Origin: Bacteroidota bacterium
GTDB lineage: Bacteria; Bacteroidota; Ignavibacteria; Kapaibacteriales; UBA2268
Length of the DNA stretch: 64,000 nt
NCBI GenBank assembly: GCA_021780815.1
Contig: JAJXYC010000003.1
Coordinates: 1-64,000, forward strand
Reading direction: 5' to 3'
Shown: in pieces, positions 3,948-47,107 of the stretch
Numbering within the stretch: position 1 is the stretch's first letter
Layout: each line of letters starts with the position of its first letter
Position numbers and translations under genes: made by a program
The notes under the pieces: model-generated
Database searches by the model: none
Told to the model about the DNA's origin: nothing
The model's input: only the letters and a program-made list of their open reading frames with translations

Positions 3948-6095
3948 TTATTTAATTGTATCAAGTTTCTTTTGTCCAAAACCAAAGTGAGAAGCACCGT
4001 TTGAAATAATCATTTCAATAATTGAACGTGAAATCAAAATTGCTGTAAACAGTGTCATAATAATACCGATCATTAAAGTAAGTGCAAAACCTTGAATTGG
4101 TCCGCTTCCAAAGTAGTATAAAATAAGTCCAGTGATGAAAGTTGTGATATTAGAGTCCATAATAGCACTTAAAGCTTTACTAAATCCCTCATCAATAGCA
4201 GATTTAAGACTTCTCCCTTTCTTTAATTCTTCACGAATTCTTTCGTAAATCAGCACGTTGGCATCAACCGCCATACCGAGAGTCAATATAATACCGGCAA
4301 TACCGGGCAAAGATAAAGTACCTCCCAGAGATGCAAGTATTCCAAGCATAAGGACGATGTTTAAAATTACGGCGAAGTCAGCAACTAAACCACCAACACT
4401 ATAATATATAAACATAAAGAGAACAACAGCCAAAGCGGCGATAATACTTGCAGTAACACCATTTCTAATTGAGTCTTCCCCGAGTGAAGGACCAACTATT
4501 CTTTCTTCGATGATTTGTACTGGAGCTTTCAAAGCACCTGCTTTTAAAACTATTTCAAGCAAACGTGCTTCTTCGGCATTTGCCATACCTGTAATTTGAG
4601 AGTTGCCACCTGATATTTTACTTTGAACAACAGGAGCGGAATATACTCTATCATCTAATACAATTGCAATACGTTTTTGCAAGTTAGCACCTGTAATTTT
4701 TGCCCAACGTTCAGCACCATCAGAATTCATTGCCATTGTAACCATAGGAGCATTGTTAGTAGGGTCATAAGTTGCCAATGCGTCTGTAATCACATCACCT
4801 GTTAGTTCAGGTTCTTTTTTTAAGGAATAAAAGTCAAATACTTTTACATTTTGTTTTAAAAATCTTTGGTCAGGTTTAGCATCAATAGCAATTTGTAAAT
4901 CAGCAGGCATCATAGCTTTGATTTCTGGTCTATTTAAAATTTCATTGAACTTCGGGATAGAATCTTCCAAAATTTTAAACATATATTCGCCTTCTGGGAA
5001 CTGCGAACTTGTGTAGTAAATTGGTACTATCTTTGCATTTTTTTGTTGTGGTGCATAATAAGTTGTAAACAATCTTGTAAACGGATGGTCTTCAAGATAT
5101 TTACGTGCTGCTTCTTCTTTTGGTAAACCAGCGTAAGGGTCAGTTGAATCTTTTGTCTTTGTTGAATCTTTAACTAAAACAGTAGAATCTTTGGCAATAG
5201 AATCTTTTTCAAGTTTTTCAGTTTTTTTCTCTAATTTAGTTTCGGCAGTTTTTTTATTTTCAGATTTTGCAATATCTGCATTTTGAACTGTTGCTTTTGT
5301 TGTATCCTGAACATTATTAGTTTCTGGAATACCTGCTTTTCTATCGTGCAAGAACTTATCAATACGAGCGAAAAATTCAACAATTTGCTTGTTATTTTTA
5401 ACTAATTTGAATTCCAAGCGAGCAGTAGTTTGCAACAAACTACGCATTTCAGTAACATTAGAAACACCCGGTAATTCCATCAAGATACGGTTTGTACCTT
5501 GTTTTTGGATATTAGGTTCAGCAACACCATATTGGTCAATTCTTTGGCGAAGAACTTCAAGTGCTTGGTCTATTGCTTGCTTTTGGTCTTCTCTAAGTTT
5601 GTCTATAATTTTATCATCAGATAAATCACGTACATTACCAAAGTCAAAATAAGAGATTAATGATTTACCTTTTGGACGTGCTATTGCATTAAAATTCTTT
5701 AAAAAGATGTCAATAACATCTTGATCAGTATTTTTTGCTTCTTCTTTTGTCTTTGCAATAACTTGTTCAAAAGTTTCATCAATTTGTTCTTTTGATGCAG
5801 TTTCTTCAATCAATTTTGCAACATCAACTTCAAGAGTAACATACATACCGCCCCGTAAATCTAACCCAAGTTTTAATTGGGAATTTTTTGCCTTCAACAA
5901 CGCTTCTCCATATTGCTTTTTAAAAGATTCCATAATTGCAAGTGAATCAGCTGGACTTTTTGCCGATTTCGCACGTTGCAAATATCCCTTTTGAATACTT
6001 TCCAAGTTGTAGGCTCTAAATGTTGGATATAACATTGCTATCGCTGCAATTACCGTAACTCCAACTAAAATTATTTTGCCAAGTACCTTCTTCAA
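3948..6095 (-). CDS. secD: Protein translocase subunit SecD, with a charged insert
   Basis: 715 residues. An N-terminal membrane segment (about 5-25), the LGLDLRGG motif at 76-83, the P1 periplasmic region with the conserved LRQRIDQYGVAEPNI block at 182-196, and a C-terminal membrane bundle with GMAVDANVLIYERIREE identify SecD. The protein is longer than most SecD proteins, partly because of a low-complexity insert at about 255-322, rich in Lys, Asp, Ser and Thr with several KDST/KDSI units. It must lie in the periplasmic loop. The first gene of the secD-secF pair; a very AT-rich 182-base gap separates it from murE. Confidence 0.96.
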   Translation of the reverse strand: MKKVLGKIILVGVTVIAAIAMLYPTFRAYNLESIQKGYLQRAKSAKSPADSLAIMESFKKQYGEALLKAKNSQLKLGLDLRGGMYVTLEVDVAKLIEETASKEQIDETFEQVIAKTKEEAKNTDQDVIDIFLKNFNAIARPKGKSLISYFDFGNVRDLSDDKIIDKLREDQKQAIDQALEVLRQRIDQYGVAEPNIQKQGTNRILMELPGVSNVTEMRSLLQTTARLEFKLVKNNKQIVEFFARIDKFLHDRKAGIPETNNVQDTTKATVQNADIAKSENKKTAETKLEKKTEKLEKDSIAKDSTVLVKDSTKTKDSTDPYAGLPKEEAARKYLEDHPFTRLFTTYYAPQQKNAKIVPIYYTSSQFPEGEYMFKILEDSIPKFNEILNRPEIKAMMPADLQIAIDAKPDQRFLKQNVKVFDFYSLKKEPELTGDVITDALATYDPTNNAPMVTMAMNSDGAERWAKITGANLQKRIAIVLDDRVYSAPVVQSKISGGNSQITGMANAEEARLLEIVLKAGALKAPVQIIEERIVGPSLGEDSIRNGVTASIIAALAVVLFMFIYYSVGGLVADFAVILNIVLMLGILASLGGTLSLPGIAGIILTLGMAVDANVLIYERIREELKKGRSLKSAIDEGFSKALSAIMDSNITTFITGLILYYFGSGPIQGFALTLMIGIIMTLFTAILISRSIIEMIISNGASHFGFGQKKLDTIK

Positions 6096-6277: not shown

Positions 6278-7792
6278 TTATTTGATTTTATTTAGTATTT
6301 CAAAATCATCAAAATTTATTTTTGACGAGCCGATTATTTGATATTTTTCATGCCCTTTGCCTGCAATTATAATATAATCATTTTTACGGGAAATTTCGTA
6401 GGCAGTAAGAATAGCATCATATCTAGATTCTATTGTTTGAACTTTATTTCTCAAATTAGATGGAACTCCTTTTAAAATTTCTTTTATAATTTGGCTCGGT
6501 TCTTCATTTCTTGGATTATCCGAAGTAATAATCACATAATCAGAATAATTTACTGCAATATTTCCCATTTCAGGTCTTTTCTCTTTGTCTCTGTCGCCTC
6601 CACAACCAAATACACAAATAATTTTAGATAAGATGTTATCTTGTTCTTTGATTGCATTCAAATTTTGCAAAACTTTCATCAACGCATCAGGTGTATGAGC
6701 ATAATCTACGATACCTATTGCTTCATTTGGTAGTTTCACCAATTGCATTCGACCAGGAGGGGCTTGTATTTGCTTCGCAGAACTTATCAATTCTTCCAAA
6801 TTAAAACCTAATGAATACAAACAAATTATAGAAAATGCCAGATTTTCTATATTGAATTTCCCAATTAGATTTGATTTTACTTTATAATAATAATTATTAT
6901 TATTAATGCCAGTAGCAATATTGTTGCCAATATGATCATTTAATTCTAAATCAAATGAAATTGAACTAATTGAAGTATTTTCGTTTAATATTTTAATTAA
7001 AGAATTGTCGTATTTGCCAATTGTGTAAATGTGTTTTGTCCCACAATCTTGGACAATTAAATCAGAATATTTATCATCTTGATTGATAATAGCGGAAGAA
7101 TTTTGCCCTAAACTTTTAAATAATATTTGTTTGGCTTGAGCATAATTTCTCATAGTTTTATGAAAATCAAGATGGTCATGCGATAAATTAGTAAAAATTG
7201 CAGAGATAAAATTAATTCCAAAAACTCTATGTTGAACAAGGGAGTGAGATGAAACTTCCATAACGGCATACTCTACATGTTTACTACGAAAATAAGCAAA
7301 TAGTTCAAATAATTCTAATGATTCAGGGGTGGTATGGGTTGTAGGAATATTTTCTTCATTTAAATAAATGCCTGTCGTCCCAATTATAGCAACATTTCTG
7401 TGGAAATTTTTAAGTAAAGAAGCAATCAAAAAAGTAATGGTAGTCTTACCGTTTGTTCCAGTAACACCAATTATTTTAATATCTTTTGCAGGGAAATCAA
7501 ACCAAACGTTTGAAAGTTGAGCCAAAGCGAGTCTTGAGTCAGCAACTAAAATATAAGAAATATCTTGCATTATTTTATCAGGCAATCTTTCGCAAATAAT
7601 GGCAACAGCACCATTTTGAATTGCTTGATTAATGAAATTATGCCCATCTGTTGTATTTCCCGATATTGCTACAAAAAGTGAATTAGATGAAATTTTGTTT
7701 GAATTATAAGCAATATTATCAATAAATATTTCTTTATCTCCTATGATTTGCAAATAATTTAAAAAAGGGAGTAACTGATTTAGGTTTTTCAT
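6278..7792 (-). CDS. murE: UDP-MurNAc-tripeptide synthetase MurE (meso-DAP type)
   Basis: 504 residues in the Mur ligase three-domain order. The ATP loop GTNGKTT is at 112-118, the Lys that is carbamylated in the family is Lys221 in QAKQILF, and the substrate-specificity motif DNPR is at 425-428, which in this family selects meso-diaminopimelate rather than lysine. The enzyme adds the third residue of the peptidoglycan stem peptide in the cytoplasm. It is transcribed alone on the minus strand and is divergent from the GT5-like gene, with 123 bases between starts. No other mur or division genes are adjacent. Confidence 0.95.
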   Translation of the reverse strand: MKNLNQLLPFLNYLQIIGDKEIFIDNIAYNSNKISSNSLFVAISGNTTDGHNFINQAIQNGAVAIICERLPDKIMQDISYILVADSRLALAQLSNVWFDFPAKDIKIIGVTGTNGKTTITFLIASLLKNFHRNVAIIGTTGIYLNEENIPTTHTTPESLELFELFAYFRSKHVEYAVMEVSSHSLVQHRVFGINFISAIFTNLSHDHLDFHKTMRNYAQAKQILFKSLGQNSSAIINQDDKYSDLIVQDCGTKHIYTIGKYDNSLIKILNENTSISSISFDLELNDHIGNNIATGINNNNYYYKVKSNLIGKFNIENLAFSIICLYSLGFNLEELISSAKQIQAPPGRMQLVKLPNEAIGIVDYAHTPDALMKVLQNLNAIKEQDNILSKIICVFGCGGDRDKEKRPEMGNIAVNYSDYVIITSDNPRNEEPSQIIKEILKGVPSNLRNKVQTIESRYDAILTAYEISRKNDYIIIAGKGHEKYQIIGSSKINFDDFEILNKIK

Positions 7793-7915: not shown

Positions 7916-9400
7916 ATGGCTTCCAGACCAATTAATGTGTTATATGTAACCAGTGAATCATTGCCATATATAAGAATACAATCGCTCGGAGATATATCGT
8001 ATTCTTTTGTTATGGCGATGAGAGAACAGGGAGTAGATATAAGGTTAGCAATGCCCCGCTACGGAATAATATCTGAACGTCGGCACCAAATTCATTATAT
8101 TAAAAGGCTAACTGATTTACCGATTCCTATTGGTAAGGAAAGTTATCCATCATCAATCAAATCATCTTCAATGAACTCTCCAAGAACAAAAGTACAAGCT
8201 TATATTACAACTAATGAATATTACTTTACTTCGAGGAAAGGGGTTTATAGAGATGCTAAAACATTAGAACTTTATCCTGATAATAACGAAAGATTCTTGT
8301 ATTTTTGTCGTTCTATTGTTGAAATGTGTAATCTAACTGAATGGGTGCCTGACATTATTCACTGTGTCGATGGTGAAACTGCCTTAATTCCAGCACTGTT
8401 TAAATTAACTTATCCTGAAAAATTTGAAAAAACTAAATTTGTTCTTTCAATTCATACTTTTGAAGAGCAATATATTTCTGGAAAAAGTTTTTTTGAAAAA
8501 ACATCTTTGCCAAAAGAATATAAAGATTATTTTATACACCAAAATAAATTTAATTTTTTGAAAGCAGGAATTGAATTTGCTGATACAGTTGTGTTTTCAA
8601 ATAGAAATTATTATGAAACAAACCTGGCAAATCCAGATATTAGTGGTGGGTTAATGGGCTTATTGGCAAGCAAAGATGTGCAAGTTTTGCCTAATGGAAT
8701 TGACCCTTGGTCTTGGGATATGCGAAAGGATAAACAGATTTGTTCAAAGTATGAAAATGATTTAGAAGAATTTAAATATAATAATAAAGTTAGTTTATCT
8801 CAAAAATTTGAATTAGATTATGACCCAAGTATACCTATTTTGGGATTAATTTTAGATGTTAATGAATACGAAGCAATTGAATATTTCATTGAAAATGCCC
8901 CTGCAATCTTTAAAGATGAAAATATTATGATATTAGCTTTGGCACGAGTAGAAACCAGATACAAAAATACATTAAACTTATTAGCAAAGAAATATAAAAA
9001 ATCATTTAGAGTACAATTTACCACTGATTTATCTTTATTCCATCAACTGTTTGCTGGCTCGGATTTTTACTTGTCTTTGGATAATCACGACCCAACAAAT
9101 ATGAATTTGGCATTTGCAGCCCGTTACGGGGCTATACCTGTTGCAAATGATTTTTATGTTGATAAAACTCTTTTTAAGTCGATAGATGAAAAGAAAGGTT
9201 TTGCTATACTTTTTGAGAAAAAGAAAGTTGAAGAGTTCCATAAAGCAATTGAAAAAGCAGTTAAAATATTTAATAATAAAGAAACGTTCAATACAATAAT
9301 TGAAAGTGCAGTTGCACAAAAGTTTAGTTGGGATAATTCCGCTAAAGAATTTAAAACTATTTATACAAAACTTTTAAAAGGCGCAAAACTTGAAAAGTAA
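7916..9400 (+). CDS. Glycogen/starch synthase-like protein (GT5 fold), probably not catalytic
   Basis: 494 residues that follow the layout of GlgA. The N-terminal half begins INVLYVTSESLPYIRIQSLGD where GlgA has the KTGGL/DV loop. The second half has LPNGIDPWSWD at the GlgA NGID-WD position and a GSDFYLSLDNHDPTNMNLA stretch aligned to GlgA FEPCGLNQ. The ADP-glucose-binding Lys of KTGG, the Arg/Lys of the SR-QKG loop, and the Glu and STGG-type loop near the C-terminus all appear to be lost. I infer a pseudoenzyme or a strongly changed donor specificity. It is followed by a lipoprotein gene that overlaps its last 11 bases and then by a barrel gene. Confidence 0.7.
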   Translation: MASRPINVLYVTSESLPYIRIQSLGDISYSFVMAMREQGVDIRLAMPRYGIISERRHQIHYIKRLTDLPIPIGKESYPSSIKSSSMNSPRTKVQAYITTNEYYFTSRKGVYRDAKTLELYPDNNERFLYFCRSIVEMCNLTEWVPDIIHCVDGETALIPALFKLTYPEKFEKTKFVLSIHTFEEQYISGKSFFEKTSLPKEYKDYFIHQNKFNFLKAGIEFADTVVFSNRNYYETNLANPDISGGLMGLLASKDVQVLPNGIDPWSWDMRKDKQICSKYENDLEEFKYNNKVSLSQKFELDYDPSIPILGLILDVNEYEAIEYFIENAPAIFKDENIMILALARVETRYKNTLNLLAKKYKKSFRVQFTTDLSLFHQLFAGSDFYLSLDNHDPTNMNLAFAARYGAIPVANDFYVDKTLFKSIDEKKGFAILFEKKKVEEFHKAIEKAVKIFNNKETFNTIIESAVAQKFSWDNSAKEFKTIYTKLLKGAKLEK

Positions 9401-13647: not shown

Positions 13648-15225
13648 ATGACTGAATTACTGACAATAAAACAAGCAAGCGATTGGGCAACCGAATATTT
13701 GAAAAAAAATATAACAACTTCAAATATTTCGTATTTGGTTAACTATGGACGAATTAAAAAACTCGGTGATAATGGTTCAACATTAATCGATAAAAATGAG
13801 CTAATTACTTATTATAAATCATTTTATGGTAATAGAGAACTTGACTGGAAAGACCAATTAGGAGATGATCTAAATTGGTCATTGTCTTTTGATTGGCTTA
13901 AAGAGAAAGATACAACAAAACATGTACATAGATTACACCCATACAAAGGGAAATTTATTCCACAACTTGTTGAGTATTTTTTAGATAGTCATACAGATAA
14001 TTTTAAAAAGCAGGTATATTTCCAAAAAGGTGATATCGTTCTAGACCCATTTTGTGGTAGTGGAACAACTTTGGTGCAAGCCAATGAATTGGGAATAAAC
14101 GCCATTGGAATTGATATTTCAGCATTTAACGCATTTATTAGCAATGTAAAATTAGCAAAATGTGATTATGTGGACTTAAACAATGAAATAAAAAAAATAA
14201 CACATGCTTTAAAAAACTTTATTGCACAAACTAATCATTTAACATTTGAAAACGAATTACTTGCAGAATTGAATGAATACAATAAACAATATTTTCCATC
14301 ACCTGAATTTAAAATTAAAGTTCGTCAGAAACAGATAAATGAATTAGAATATACTAACGAAAAAGTTAATAATTTTATGCCAACTTTTGAAAAATTGGTA
14401 AAAAAATACAACTTGAAAATCGTCCAGGAAAATACAGATAATTTTTTAGGTAAGTGGTATTTACAAACTGTTAAAGATGAAATAGATTTAGTTTTTTCAA
14501 TGGTAAAACAAATAAAAAATATTACGACAAAAAAAATTCTAAGTGTTATATTAAGCAGAACAATTCGTTCTTGCAGAGCAACAACACATGCCGATTTGGC
14601 AACCTTAATTGACCCTGTAACTTCAATTTATTATTGTGCAAAACACGGTAAAATTTGTAAACCTGTATTTTCAATGCTTCCGTGGTTTGAAAGATACAGT
14701 AAAGACACAATTCAAAGATACGCTGAATATGAAAAACTTAAAACAAAAACTTTCCAATATTGCTTAACAGGAGACAGTAGAAATATTGACATTTTTGCAG
14801 AAATTGAAAATAAAAATCCACAATTTGCAGAAATAGTTAAAAATCATAAAATAAAAGGTATCTTCAGCAGTCCGCCTTATGTTGGATTAATTGACTATCA
14901 CGAACAACACGCTTACGCATACGATTTGTTTGGTTTCGAACGAAACGACAATTTGGAAATTGGAGCAATGCAACAAGGACAAAGCAAACAAGCAAAAGAA
15001 AATTATGTGCAAGGAATTGCAGATGTTTTGAATAATACAAAACGTTTTTTGGCAAACGATTACGATATATTTTTAGTCGCAAATGATAAAAATAATTTGT
15101 ATCCGAGAATAGCAGAATTAGCAGGAATGCAAATTGTTAATCAACATAAAAGACCTGTTTTAAACAGAACTGAAAAAGATAAAACAGCATATTCGGAAAT
15201 AATATTTCATTTAAAATCAAAATAA
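13648..15225 (+). CDS. Type II DNA methyltransferase (probable N4-cytosine) with N-terminal helix-turn-helix
   Basis: 525 residues. The N-terminal 60 residues (LTIKQASDW ... LVNYGRIKKLGDNG ... LIDKNELITYY) read like an excisionase/MerR-type helix-turn-helix. The conserved HPYKGKF is at 97-103, SAM motif I DPFCGSGTT at 133-141, and the catalytic SPPY motif at 408-411, which favours N4-cytosine (or N6-adenine) methylation. About 270 residues between motif I and SPPY probably hold the target-recognition part. It heads a three-gene operon: the next gene starts four bases after its stop and the nuclease follows. It should protect the genome from that nuclease; the HTH could make it autorepressing. 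Confidence 0.88.
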   Translation: MTELLTIKQASDWATEYLKKNITTSNISYLVNYGRIKKLGDNGSTLIDKNELITYYKSFYGNRELDWKDQLGDDLNWSLSFDWLKEKDTTKHVHRLHPYKGKFIPQLVEYFLDSHTDNFKKQVYFQKGDIVLDPFCGSGTTLVQANELGINAIGIDISAFNAFISNVKLAKCDYVDLNNEIKKITHALKNFIAQTNHLTFENELLAELNEYNKQYFPSPEFKIKVRQKQINELEYTNEKVNNFMPTFEKLVKKYNLKIVQENTDNFLGKWYLQTVKDEIDLVFSMVKQIKNITTKKILSVILSRTIRSCRATTHADLATLIDPVTSIYYCAKHGKICKPVFSMLPWFERYSKDTIQRYAEYEKLKTKTFQYCLTGDSRNIDIFAEIENKNPQFAEIVKNHKIKGIFSSPPYVGLIDYHEQHAYAYDLFGFERNDNLEIGAMQQGQSKQAKENYVQGIADVLNNTKRFLANDYDIFLVANDKNNLYPRIAELAGMQIVNQHKRPVLNRTEKDKTAYSEIIFHLKSK

Positions 15226-15229
15226 ATTT

Positions 15230-15511
15230 ATGAAAACTTTTGAGATACAATACATTAGCAGGTATTATGATGAAAAGAATTACAATTCGGAAACTATTAA
15301 AGCAAAAACTGAAGAAGATGTATTAAAAAAGTTCGCGAAATTATTTGGAATTAAAAATTTCAAACAATTATTTGAACCAATGTATATGTGGGAAGATGGT
15401 CAATGGATGTCGTCTTTTAAATATATAAATGAAGTTGAAGAAATAGTTTGTGAACATTGTAATGGAAGTGGGAAAATTCAAATAAATAAGAAAAAAAATG
15501 GCTCTAAATAA
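15230..15511 (+). CDS. Small CxxCxGxG protein between methyltransferase and nuclease genes
   Basis: 93 residues, starting four bases after the methyltransferase stop and overlapping the nuclease start by 14 bases, so it is tightly coupled to the restriction-modification operon. The N-terminal part (about 1-60) is acidic/basic alpha-beta with aromatic residues. Near the C-terminus it has CEHCNGSGK, a single CxxCxGxG knuckle as found in DnaJ zinc-binding repeats; one knuckle alone gives only two ligands, so zinc binding would need dimerisation or other ligands. I do not recognise a family. It has no similarity by eye to controller (C) proteins or Vsr nucleases. Confidence 0.8.
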   Translation: MKTFEIQYISRYYDEKNYNSETIKAKTEEDVLKKFAKLFGIKNFKQLFEPMYMWEDGQWMSSFKYINEVEEIVCEHCNGSGKIQINKKKNGSK

Positions 15512-16283
15512 AGAACAAATACAATCAATTGAAAATGTTTTACGAAACAGTTTAAGACATAAATTTCAGAATTATAAACCAGAACCTGCCTCAATGCCTT
15601 TTCATACCAGATTGTTGGGCAAAGATATAATGGCATTATTTTCATTTATTCATTCGTTGAATACTAATTTTGGAACAAGTATTTTTGAACCTGTTGCACT
15701 TGCTTTGGCAAGTTCTAAATTTAAAGTTGCTAAAAGTCAATCACAAGCAGGAACTCAAATGAGTGAAAATGCTCAATTTGAAATACAGCAAATAATGGAC
15801 GAATTGACAGCCGCAAACGTAAAACCTGATAAAATTAAAGAAACAGAAACAATTAGAAAAGTTTGTCAAACAGGAACTTTAAGAAAAGTTAAACCAACAT
15901 TGGTTGATATTTGGCTCGAAAGTCATGACGGAGAATATTTTTTATTTGACATTAAAACTGCAAAACCAAACAAAGGCGGTTTCAAAGAATTTAAAAGAAC
16001 TTTGTTAGAATGGACAGCAGCAATTTTGGCAGAAAATCCAAATGCAAAAGTAAATACGATAATTGCAATTCCTTACAATCCTTATGAACCCAAACCTTAC
16101 AGTCGTTGGACAATGGCAGGAATGTTAGATTTGGAAAATGAATTAAAAGTAGCAGACGAATTTTGGGATTTTCTTGGTGGTCAGGGAACTTACAAAGATT
16201 TATTGGATTGTTTTGAACGTGTTGGAATTGAACTTCGCAAGGAAATTGATGATTACTTTGAAAAATACCAAAGAATATTATGA
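15498..16283 (+). CDS. Type II restriction endonuclease, TdeIII/MjaII-like
   Basis: 261 residues. The central stretch has a PD-(D/E)xK-type core: VKPTLVDIWL with Asp137, then LFDIKTAKPNKGGFKEFKR with Asp151 and Lys153. The layout and the KTAKPNKGGFKEFKRTLLEW block resemble the TdeIII/MjaII family, whose members cut GGNCC; both the assignment and the specificity come from memory of that family. The nuclease is the third gene of the operon with the N4-cytosine-type methyltransferase, which fits a GC-rich target. The ATG follows A8 with no clear ribosome site; translation is probably coupled to the overlapping small gene. Confidence 0.78.
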   Translation: MALNKEQIQSIENVLRNSLRHKFQNYKPEPASMPFHTRLLGKDIMALFSFIHSLNTNFGTSIFEPVALALASSKFKVAKSQSQAGTQMSENAQFEIQQIMDELTAANVKPDKIKETETIRKVCQTGTLRKVKPTLVDIWLESHDGEYFLFDIKTAKPNKGGFKEFKRTLLEWTAAILAENPNAKVNTIIAIPYNPYEPKPYSRWTMAGMLDLENELKVADEFWDFLGGQGTYKDLLDCFERVGIELRKEIDDYFEKYQRIL

Positions 16284-44536: not shown

Positions 44537-44625
44537 GGAGAGGTGGCCGAGTGGCTTAAGGCAACGGTTTGCTAAACCGTCGTAGGGGTAACACTCTACC
44601 GGGGGTTCGAATCCCCCCTTCTCCG
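44537..44625 (+). tRNA. tRNA-Ser(GCU)
   Basis: A complete type II tRNA of 89 bases without CCA. Acceptor GGAGAGG pairs with CTTCTCC (one G-T), D-stem GCC/GGC, anticodon stem ACGGT/ACCGT with loop TTGCTAA (anticodon GCT at 44571-44573), a long variable arm, and T-stem GGGGG/CCCCC with loop TTCGAAT. The discriminator is G, as required for serine. Confidence 0.97.
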
Positions 44626-44852
44626 CTCAATGTTCTATGTTTACGTCCTATATTCCCCTTCCCACGACCGCTATTACATCAGGTAAACTCAAGATATAGA
44701 TAGAAGAATAATAAGACATAACACAGGTCAAGTAAAATCGACCAAACCATACAGTCCGTAGGAAATAATTTGCATCTCTTCGATTTATATATTTTGTTCC
44801 TTCACCTAATTTTTTCCCGAAAGTTAAAACGCATTGCTTCGAAACCTATTTT
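44626..44852. other. Non-coding stretch downstream of tRNA-Ser
   Basis: About 227 bases with a locally higher G+C patch (around 44650-44680) than the surroundings. No confident gene; a 66-codon open frame on the minus strand has no start context or recognisable content. No copy of the tRNA 3' end was seen here or farther on, so an integration site is not demonstrated. Confidence 0.5.
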
Positions 44853-44959: not shown

Positions 44960-45550
44960 CTATTTTATTTCCCTTTCATAAACTCCAGTTTGATTAATCA
45001 TTGGTCTGTTAAGGAAAAAGGGGTTAAGGCTTCTAAGATCAATATCCTTGGTTTTAAATAATATTTCCTTTGATTTATTATGAAAATTATTTAAGGTTAA
45101 TTTTATTTCTTGAAGATCAAAATCAGAAATTTTTACTTTATCTTCTCCTTCAATCAAAAATTGTAAAATACACATTGTTGATTGCGCTTTTTTTAGAACA
45201 TTAATTTTTGAAATTGAATCATATTTGAACTCGTTTGAATTCACAGAATGTATATAGTAATCAATAACTTCTTTAAATTCATATTCTTTCCCTTCCTTAA
45301 TTTCGATTTTATAATCTTTTATATGGAAATCTGAATAATAAGTGTTGAGTGATATTAATACGCAATAACCATAACCAGAATATCTTTTATAATCTTCTTT
45401 TAAATTTATTGGTAAAGATGCATCTGAATGAAAATTACAAAAAATCCCGAAAATTTTCCCATAAATTTTTGCATCTCTTAGGTAATTGAAATAAAATGAT
45501 AATCCTGAAATAATCAATGCAATTATTGATATGACAACTGATATTTCCAT
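44960..45550 (-). CDS. Small membrane-anchored protein, unknown
   Basis: 196 residues from the ATG at 45550, which has AGGAG at 45556-45560 with a five-base spacer. A single N-terminal membrane helix (about 3-24, ISVVISIIALIISGLSFYF) is followed by a soluble part of about 170 residues, rich in charged and aromatic residues (HIKDYKIEIKEGKEYEFKEV), probably cytoplasmic because positive residues follow the helix. The frame stays open upstream to 45718, but that extension reads as the C-terminal tail of a type IIG restriction enzyme, so it is annotated apart. The function is unknown; the position in a decayed restriction locus hints at an accessory or defence role, which is speculation. Confidence 0.68.
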   Translation of the reverse strand: MEISVVISIIALIISGLSFYFNYLRDAKIYGKIFGIFCNFHSDASLPINLKEDYKRYSGYGYCVLISLNTYYSDFHIKDYKIEIKEGKEYEFKEVIDYYIHSVNSNEFKYDSISKINVLKKAQSTMCILQFLIEGEDKVKISDFDLQEIKLTLNNFHNKSKEILFKTKDIDLRSLNPFFLNRPMINQTGVYEREIK

Positions 45551-45718
45551 CACTTCTCCTTCTTCAATATTTTTTATTTCTTCTTCGGTTAATTCATATA
45601 ATTTATACACCATCATATCAATTTCTCGCTCTTTGACGGTGGTGTCTTTGTTATTCACTTTCTGTTTCAGAATAATATTTATTAATTCAATGATGGTGAC
45701 ATATTTTTCCTGCTTTAT
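45551..45718 (-). pseudogene. C-terminal remnant of a type IIG (Eco57I-like) restriction-methylation enzyme
   Basis: The minus-strand frame between the stop at 45719-45721 and the membrane-protein ATG reads IKQEKYVTIIELINIILKQK, then KDTTVKEREIDMMVYKLYEL and TEEEIKNIEEGEV. The pattern (D-T-T, a-E-x-E-I-D-x-x-V-Y-x-L-Y-x-L-T-x-E-E-I) matches the very C-terminus of many Eco57I/N6-methylase-type single-chain restriction enzymes. The rest of such a gene (about 800 or more residues) is absent. The remnant is in frame with the membrane protein. Confidence 0.7.
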
Positions 45719-45901
45719 TTAAATTGTATTACCCATCTTCACTATTGCAATATTGCTTGGACCGCTTGTTTCATTGTTTTTTCTTGCTTTTACAACATAT
45801 TGGATTCCTATTCCTATATTCGGACCTATGTGAACATAACTCGTTCTGGTAACTACATCAAGTAATTTCCAGTCTTGTGGGATAATATGTTTCTGCCATT
45901 T
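45719..45901 (-). pseudogene. FN3-like fragment
   Basis: An open frame of 60 codons after a TAG at 45902-45904 and ending at the TAA 45719-45721, without a usable start. It reads WKLLDVVTRTSYVHIGP, then IGIQYVVKARKNNETSGPSN and IAIV, which resembles the last strands of a fibronectin type III domain (Y-x-V-x-A-R ... G-x-S-x-P-S-N). It shares its frame with the type IIG remnant that follows the stop. Probably a gene fragment; the family call is by eye. Confidence 0.4.
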
Positions 45902-46043
45902 CTATACTTCTTTTTTAGTGATAAATATTTTAATTAATATTTTCTTCTAAATTAATAATAATATTGGTATAATTACTAATTTTACTTTTTGAATTTTATT
46001 TTTTACTGGTAAAATTTTATTTTTTATCAATAAAATATTAATT
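45902..46043. other. AT-rich non-coding stretch within the decayed region
   Basis: No gene. It contains two close copies of TTTTATTTTTTA-like sequence (about 45990 and 46017) in AT-rich DNA. Confidence 0.5.
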
Positions 46044-46202
46044 TTAATTATCCTCATCATTAGTTCTAAATTTTAAATCATAATTTATAATAAAATTAAT
46101 TTCTTCATCACTTAAATTATATGCTTCCTGAATGGCTAAATCTATTTTATTAATGATATGTTTTGATTTACGAGCATAATATTCACGATATTCAGTGATA
46201 AA
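46044..46202 (-). pseudogene. Second, different C-terminal remnant of a type IIG/N6-methylase enzyme
   Basis: The minus-strand frame reads EYREYYARKSKHIINKIDLA, then IQEAYNLSDEEINFIINYDL and KFRTNDEDN before TAA at 46044-46046. The pattern (Y-Y-x-x-K-S-K-x-I-I-x-x-I-D ... L-x-D-E-E-x-x-F-I-I-N-Y-D-x-K-x-R) is the C-terminal signature of another Eco57I-like methylase-restriction subgroup. An in-frame TGA at 46203-46205 lies in an 11-base tandem duplication; removing one copy would extend the frame by about ten codons. The rest of the gene is missing. Confidence 0.72.
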
Positions 46203-46351
46203 TCAGTGATAAGGGAATTAATAAAATTTTGTGATTAAAATTTAAAGTCTAGTTTGATTTCTTTAATCGCTTAAAAATAGGTGTTATTCAATTTTACTCA
46301 TCAAGAGGGACCTAATTATGCAAATTTCGTAATGAAAAATGAGTAGTAAAC

Positions 46352-47107
46352 CTATTTGAGCAAATTAGGTTTTTCTAATACAACAACAATTTGCCAAGCC
46401 AAAAATTTCATAAACGGAATCTTTTTAAAAAGGTATTCATCCAATTTATCGAATGTCCTTTTTAATGATGAATAAAATCGAAGGTTACGAAAAGGCAAAG
46501 TAAAAAGTGAAAAGAAGTTAAAATATTTACATTCTACTTTATTAAAATACTTTTCCATTATGTGTATATCTCGTAAAATTAAAGGATGTTCGTCTTTTGT
46601 TCTAATGTGTGGTGTAAGTTTTCTAAATAAGTTAATAAACGGATTATATCCCATTGGCTCAATAAAAATTGCTTTACCATTAGAATTTAGAACTCGGTTT
46701 AGCTCGCTTGATGCTTTTTCAATATTCAGATGATGCAAAATTCCTGAGCCACAAACTAAATCAAAGCTTCTATTTTCGAAGTGCATTGCTTCGGCGTCCA
46801 TTATAAAAAAATCAACATTTTTCAAATTTTCATTTTGAGCTTTTTCTTTAGACATTTTAATTGCAACTTCGGATATATCTATGCCTATCACTTCTGTCCC
46901 GTATTTAGATAAAGTAAAAGCATAAGAGCCTGTTCCGCAACCATATTCAAGAATCTTTTTCTTGGAACAATTTGCTAAAAGTATATTTTCATAATATTTT
47001 CCACTACTATTCTCAACTCCGTATAATTTAGAAACGGATTTTCGTGCTTCTGCTTCATACGAATAATCAAAGAAATTTTTTTCTTGTTCTTTTTGAGTTT
47101 CGTCCAT
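46352..47107 (-). CDS. Class I SAM-dependent methyltransferase
   Basis: 251 residues. SAM motif I ILEYGCGTG is at 52-60, GIDIS follows at the end of strand 2, and FDLVCGSGILHHL marks the Methyltransf_11-type core. A 90-residue C-terminal extension (FRKLTPHIRTKDEHPL, then aromatic/basic helices) may bind the substrate or the membrane. The substrate is unknown. It lies beside the decayed restriction region with no clear operon partner. Confidence 0.88.
   Translation of the reverse strand: MDETQKEQEKNFFDYSYEAEARKSVSKLYGVENSSGKYYENILLANCSKKKILEYGCGTGSYAFTLSKYGTEVIGIDISEVAIKMSKEKAQNENLKNVDFFIMDAEAMHFENRSFDLVCGSGILHHLNIEKASSELNRVLNSNGKAIFIEPMGYNPFINLFRKLTPHIRTKDEHPLILRDIHIMEKYFNKVECKYFNFFSLFTLPFRNLRFYSSLKRTFDKLDEYLFKKIPFMKFLAWQIVVVLEKPNLLK

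Follow-up and report, generated by a model that had tools for sequence, protein, structure and literature searches.

Integron gene-cassette arrays hold single genes in a row, many of them of toxin or defence type, with a recurring short element between them, and accessory defence genes are known to occur within or behind restriction-modification (R-M) operons. In the current work, a locus in a stretch of 64,000 nucleotides from a Bacteroidota bacterium (contig JAJXYC010000003.1; this whole stretch is referred to as the window) was compared with loci of related genomes, and the resulting picture shares features with both of these systems. As in integron arrays, single toxin- or defence-type genes are split by a recurring short element, here the 3' end (“tail”) of a type IIG R-M gene, but no integrase (tyrosine recombinase IntI) was recognised among the ORFs scanned in the arrays examined, no attC structure was recognised and the limits of the element are variable. 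As in R-M operons with accessory defence genes, RhuM, AbiD, ApeA, TIR and DUF3800 genes adjoin R-M genes, the difference being their link to duplicated or orphaned IIG tails, which did not turn up in the literature searched.

Specificity genes of type I and type IIG are known to undergo domain movement (DoMo), or target-recognition-domain swapping (PMC3077401, PMC3983042), and it is established that their recognition domains are swapped via conserved flanks, among them a C-terminal conserved sequence (PMC3077401). The IIG swaps reported below are of the same kind, in that specificity is exchanged, between loci as well, by recombination in conserved stretches next to the recognition domain; unlike in DoMo, the C-terminal segment here also bounds the exchange of unrelated downstream genes and persists in the form of free-standing tails. 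In homology-facilitated illegitimate recombination, described for experimental transformation and conjugation, one end is joined by homology and the other without it, and the insertion is accompanied by deletions of similar size (PMC3240628 and references therein). The blocks described here are likewise anchored at one end, in the tail, and have an unrelated far end, but the process is read from junctions alone and its anchor is the 3' end of a gene family.

The family of the IIG tails, the swapping of recognition domains and the occurrence of accessory genes close to R-M systems are already known, and the tail-boundary pattern is put forward as a lead; the literature searched, which was covered in part, yielded no account in which IIG 3' ends recur as borders of defence genes that can be exchanged. 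The window locus is one instance of this wider pattern. We read it, with a probability of roughly 0.6, as a scar locus (44960-46202) from recombination at conserved gene 3' ends, with the tails serving as a hinge for swaps of recognition domains and of downstream genes (“cargo”).

Organisation of the locus

The locus occupies a 1.7-kb AT-rich stretch (26% GC, versus 31% for the window) between a tRNA-Ser(GCT) and a class I methyltransferase gene, and comprises the following features:

44537..44626, plus strand: tRNA-Ser(GCT), found by ARAGORN and Rfam; neighbour only
44960..45550, minus strand: 196-aa ORF, candidate cargo gene, with an N-terminal hydrophobic helix and in frame with tail A
45554..45718, minus strand: tail A, C-terminus of a group A IIG enzyme (..EREIDMMVYKLYELTEEEIKNIEEGE), from PADLOC PDLC03612 and 63% identity to an intact IIG
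45719..45901, minus strand: third orphan C-terminus, end of a ~212-aa multicopy protein, unrelated to the IIG tails
46044..46202, minus strand: tail B, C-terminus of a group B IIG enzyme (FITEYREYYARKSKHIINKIDLAIQEAYNLSDEEINFIINYDLKFRTNDEDN, followed by the stop), from PADLOC PDLC03628 and 76-80% identity to intact IIGs
46192..46212, minus strand: TTATCACTGA in two copies separated by 1 base, where tail B has its upstream edge; seen in the sequence itself
46352-47107: class I methyltransferase gene, far border of the AT-rich stretch

On the minus strand, tail B (46202-46044) is followed by the third orphan C-terminus (45901-45719), tail A (45718-45554) and the 196-aa ORF (45550-44960). The stop codon of the third C-terminus abuts the start of tail A, which itself lacks a stop codon. 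The first-pass annotation of this DNA had given 45551-45718 as a minus-strand frame, and this needs correction: the frame is not closed, and from stop to stop it spans 44960-45718, leading without a change of frame into the 196-aa ORF, the ATG of which (45550) is preceded a few bases upstream by GGAG. The paired copies of TTATCACTGA at the edge of tail B may be an end-joining scar. Between 44627 and 46351 no ORF with an NPPY-motif nuclease/methylase body adjoins the tails, and none of the frames upstream of tail B holds a body, so that no functional IIG is present there, in agreement with the earlier statement that neither tail retains its catalytic body.

The neighbouring tRNA-Ser, to which the locus had been linked, is indeed present, but a role for it is not borne out: no second copy of its 3' end was detected in the window when up to 4 mismatches in 24 were allowed, and a tRNA-integrated genomic island, or tRNA-driven integration, was rejected on this basis. 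The isocitrate dehydrogenase neighbourhood shows no synteny in four same-genus genomes, and aat together with tRNA-Ser is retained in only one same-genus genome, where the contig ends at that point. Elsewhere in the window (13648-16280), an intact TdeIII-type restriction enzyme is encoded with an N6_N4 methylase; this R-M pair at 13.6-16.3 kb, some 30 kb from the tails, had been brought into connection with them, a connection that finds no support since the enzyme is of the unrelated TdeIII type and not a IIG.

Identity of the tails

Tails A and B are, well beyond chance, the final ~50 codons of type IIG enzymes, a different enzyme in each case. Using hmmscan against PADLOC, both match the extreme ends of distinct REase_MTase_IIG models, tail A covering positions 1198-1247 of 1247 of PDLC03612 (E 1.6e-9) and tail B positions 1055-1095 of 1100 of PDLC03628 (E 3.8e-8), while tail A also matches two more IIG models; Pfam gave no significant match for either tail. 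The first-pass assignment of the two minus-strand stretches to C-termini of different IIG groups is thereby confirmed. The PADLOC IIG models cover most of the length of the intact tail relatives examined. In the same genome, a 1290-aa intact IIG gene on contig C7, with the domains DUF7149-DUF7814-Eco57I-TaqI_C, has an end (G000:C7:342732-342896) that is 63% identical to tail A, and intact IIG genes of 1047-1210 aa in four other genera (G016, G017, G025 and G046) have ends 76-80% identical to tail B. The parent of tail A (L076) carries DUF7149, DUF7814, Eco57I and TaqI_C, and the parents of tail B (L068 and L079) carry DUF7149, DUF7814 and Eco57I. Tail A had no match in plasmids, and a tail mini-ORF none in phages.

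The count of two IIG tails stands, though the third orphan C-terminus located between them had been overlooked. This piece is 51-65% identical to the C-termini of ~150-280-aa frames in G013, G019, G022, G035, G046 and G002, and its family is multicopy in relatives, with 9 matches in G013; it has no Pfam, NCBIfam or PADLOC match, and by eye its end resembles a fibronectin-III-type domain. Shortened copies of the family are also found in the window's own genome (L092 and L093), where two short ORFs (G000:C2:66519-66590 and G000:C7:296789-296869) seemingly fuse its start and its end, the middle being missing.

Orphaning is specific to the 3' end

A profile of the group-A tail (A3) was searched in 54 genomes of the family, and a control profile of the catalytic motif IV region (A4), representing one central region only, was searched in the same genomes. 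Tail matches were located in frames of <100 aa in 46 of 122 cases, versus 0 of 100 for motif IV, where the smallest frame was 286 aa (Fisher p 1e-14, with shared ancestry uncorrected, counts that depend on the threshold and genomes that are mostly draft assemblies). Contig ends and degradation are expected to act equally on both profiles, and orphaning is therefore specific to the 3' end. In a broader set of 294 genomes of the class, orphan tails are also present in other families, often at a distance of 0.2-3 kb downstream of an intact IIG gene, examples being G345:C92, G268:C32, G262:C1, G248:C15 and G158:C3.

These counts agree with the earlier proposal that breakpoints lie near gene tails. 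The accompanying idea, that the tails are leftovers of whole systems decaying at one spot, is incomplete, because tails bound single defence or toxin genes, also without a neighbouring IIG body, and because one of the window tails leads straight into a candidate cargo gene. Plain decay, according to which IIG systems came and went here, random deletions left only their 3' ends and the 196-aa gene is a bystander, appears rather unlikely. It would fit with three unrelated tails standing consecutively in an AT-rich stretch without other genes, and with the many orphan tails elsewhere that have no following gene, but it should leave central pieces too, as opposed to the complete lack of orphaned motif IV regions; furthermore, the sole homolog of the 196-aa gene also sits between tail remnants, and a tail with AbiD adjoins a carboxylase gene at a place that in sister species lacks an IIG gene (see below). 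Since orphan tails recur as junction marks of swapped defence and toxin genes, they look like traces of gene shuffling and not random debris.

Genes adjoining the tails

Some 100 loci were mapped. They include compact rows of the order gene-tail-gene-tail, in which the tails often begin 0-80 bases past the preceding stop, and the following arrangements:

Orphan tail behind an intact IIG with cargo between: AbiD (L070), RhuM (L072), RAYT (L103), KilA-N-like (L069)
Intact IIG with a pair of small ORFs behind it, followed by a DUF4258 gene that has two tails: L140
Gene flanked by a tail on either side: NYN (L141), MazF (L143), RhuM (L071), the family of the window's 196-aa ORF (L107)
Genes adjoining or between tails: AbiD (L070, L084), RhuM (L071, L072, L105, L141), KilA-N (L069, L142), MazF/PemK (L143), NYN (L141), DUF4258 (L140), CAP12-like TIR protein (L106), ApeA-like protein (L075), PADLOC candidate PDC-M36A (L085), PD-(D/E)XK_3 (L158), DUF3800 (L154, L225), Y1/RAYT transposases (L074, L076, L103)

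Most of the listed cargo families are characteristic of defence and toxin genes, and many further tail-adjoining genes are unassigned. At L068, an intact group-B IIG overlaps a group-A tail, behind which comes another gene, and this reproduces the B-then-A order of the window.

The 196-aa ORF has a sole homolog among 295 genomes, in G034 (Ignavibacteria bacterium UBA5771; 51% identity), which is preceded by a mini-ORF ending in DLTTEEKIKEGGRK and has an IIG tail on its other side. This mini-ORF looks like an eroded IIG tail. Both known members of the family thus adjoin IIG tails. The protein matched no family and nothing significant among solved structures, its structure model is unreliable (mean pLDDT 47.5), and the gene was found in none of the plasmids; it is regarded as a candidate membrane-anchored cargo gene, putatively a single-gene defence.

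Signs of exchange at the tail

G035 has two copies of a 4711-bp block on separate contigs, with zero mismatches between them: one stands directly behind the tail of an IIG of 1036 aa, the other behind that of a 530-aa Methylase_S protein. The block encodes Cas6, a RAMP protein, a protein of 230 aa and two further proteins. The tails in front of it show 4 differences over 68 bases and are themselves preceded by unrelated sequences. Its far end lies within the C-terminal sequence of an opposite-strand gene, complete at one site and reduced to an orphan fragment at the other. The block has a homologous junction in the tail and unrelated far flanks. A second unit, of 1091 bp, consists of a tail and AbiD and is 98% identical between G048, where it stands behind an IIG, and the sister species G041, where the IIG body is absent; tail and AbiD adjoin a carboxylase gene at a site where sister species have no IIG gene. 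A clean empty site for tail-cargo units was not found, the sister loci of L084 being wholly different past the shared gene.

The end of the duplicated Cas6/RAMP block (L219 about 6847-6917, L220 about 8205-8275) carries the C-terminal sequence ..PKGVYFVRTENGLIKFVK, which resembles a sorting tail for type IX secretion. In its second copy this end is a bare fragment, and the 3' ends of other gene families may therefore be hinges as well. The Cas6, RAMP and unassigned genes behind the R-M genes of L219 and L220 are possibly a reduced CRISPR-like module.

Orthologous IIG loci within one genus (L221 versus L222, and L223, L224 and L225) have a conserved body and a swapped recognition domain. The final 180-360 bp up to the stop are 92-95% identical, the next gene is wholly different, and the downstream flank is conserved again in L221/L222 and L223/L224. 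As the 3' end is conserved while the recognition domain and the next gene are exchanged, the 3' end constitutes a hinge between two swapped parts. Recognition-domain swapping of the DoMo type is accordingly shown for the loci of relatives.

Proposed mechanism

We infer the recombination route and the order of events in the window as follows. In these bacteria, a conserved segment made up of the last 25-120 codons of IIG genes separates two parts that change fast: on its upstream side the target recognition domain, and right behind the stop a single small defence or toxin gene or a few of them. Recombination anchored in this conserved 3' segment would exchange either of these parts, including cases in which the R-M genes involved are not orthologous. 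If homology is available at one end alone and the joining at the other is illegitimate, the IIG body would be lost or displaced, and a bare tail would be left beside the cargo. In the window, tail A would be a hinge attached to the 196-aa membrane-anchored cargo gene, and tail B and the third tail would be scars of further events. Recognition-domain swapping and homology-facilitated illegitimate recombination may together explain cargo exchange, loss of the IIG body and bare tails. Where cargo follows, the tail would often supply the ribosome-binding site and an overlapping start of the cargo, and its retention would be favoured in this way.

If IIG 3' ends are hinges, R-M genes would be active landing pads for other defences and not mere neighbours of them, orphan tails would become readable marks of past exchanges, and recognition-domain swapping would be extended to the genes behind the enzyme. 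Genes positioned right behind IIG tails would then offer a sequence probe for new single-gene defences, the 196-aa gene of the window being one candidate. A bolder and rather improbable reading is that IIG tails are the joint of a class-wide cassette system, acting both as exchange point and as translation start for interchangeable single-gene defences; if true, any R-M gene with this tail could acquire, stack and drop accessory defence genes.

Possible translation coupling and site-specific alternatives

Cargo starts overlap or abut tail stops at a number of loci (L074, L076, L083, L085, L102, L104, L140, L188, L193, L198, L210 and L213). In addition, the Glu of the closing [IV]EG is encoded by GAG in 41 of 60 cases (GAG:GAA 41:19), versus 337 of 1642 (337:1305) elsewhere in IIG frames, and yields a GGAGG-like sequence at the tail end; this bias, uncorrected for ancestry, suggests coupling. 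In one genus, a conserved ~200-bp block ending in a tail mini-ORF precedes differing cargo (L081, L082, L083, L085, L102, L106 and L158). All of this, together with the GGAG ahead of ATG 45550 in the window, would be expected if the tail were a translational leader, with cargo behind IIG genes coupled to the IIG stop codon, selection keeping the last codons to drive the cargo after deletion of the body, and movement playing a minor part. Such an account is nonetheless improbable, as tails that end an array have nothing to lead and identical cargo behind different R-M genes is left unexplained; nor is a leader role general, because 24 of the 46 orphan tails have no same-strand gene of at least 70 aa within 120 bases downstream.

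A site-specific cassette system that uses the tail as its attachment site, whether it resembles an integron or relies on RAYT/Y1 transposases, is very improbable. The gene-tail-gene-tail arrays with their short spacing, the Y1/RAYT-type genes that adjoin tails in L074, L076 and L103, and a small inverted repeat (ATAGAC..GTCTAT) in some tails are what such a system would produce, yet at their 5' side orphan tails are limited at points spread over tens of codons, no sequence is common to the far ends of units, and most units are not accompanied by a recombinase. A site-specific enzyme is less likely on account of these variable limits and far ends.

An integron cassette array would have IntI and attC sites at fixed positions, as opposed to the variable tail limits found here and to the arrays examined, where no integrase was recognised among the ORFs scanned. 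A hairpin or attC-like structure of the tail comes down to a 6-base inverted repeat that is partly a consequence of codons. RAYT transposases, present at few loci, do not qualify as a general driver; a Y1 transposase domain was observed inside a 1547-aa IIG open frame of a same-genus genome (L104, 1292-5932).

Functional mini-proteins, for instance decoys for IIG assembly or regulators, would account for the orphan tails of one genus that start with an ATG of their own and keep a conserved form of 48-50 aa, but have next to no probability as a general explanation, given that many orphan tails are without a start codon or contain stops and that another gene is fused to tail A in the window.

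Repeats near IIG genes and cargo

At L223 and L224 (G041:C15 and G028:C32), a ~104-bp repeat is located ~80 bases upstream of the IIG start and again directly past the IIG stop (in L224 at 1150-1255 and 4148-4251). The copy behind the stop stands ~76 bases from the next gene, like a duplicated leader, and the repeat is seen once more behind cargo in a sister species. Repeats common to several of the loci with the ~200-bp block (L081, L082, L083, L085, L102, L106 and L158) also stand behind the cargo.
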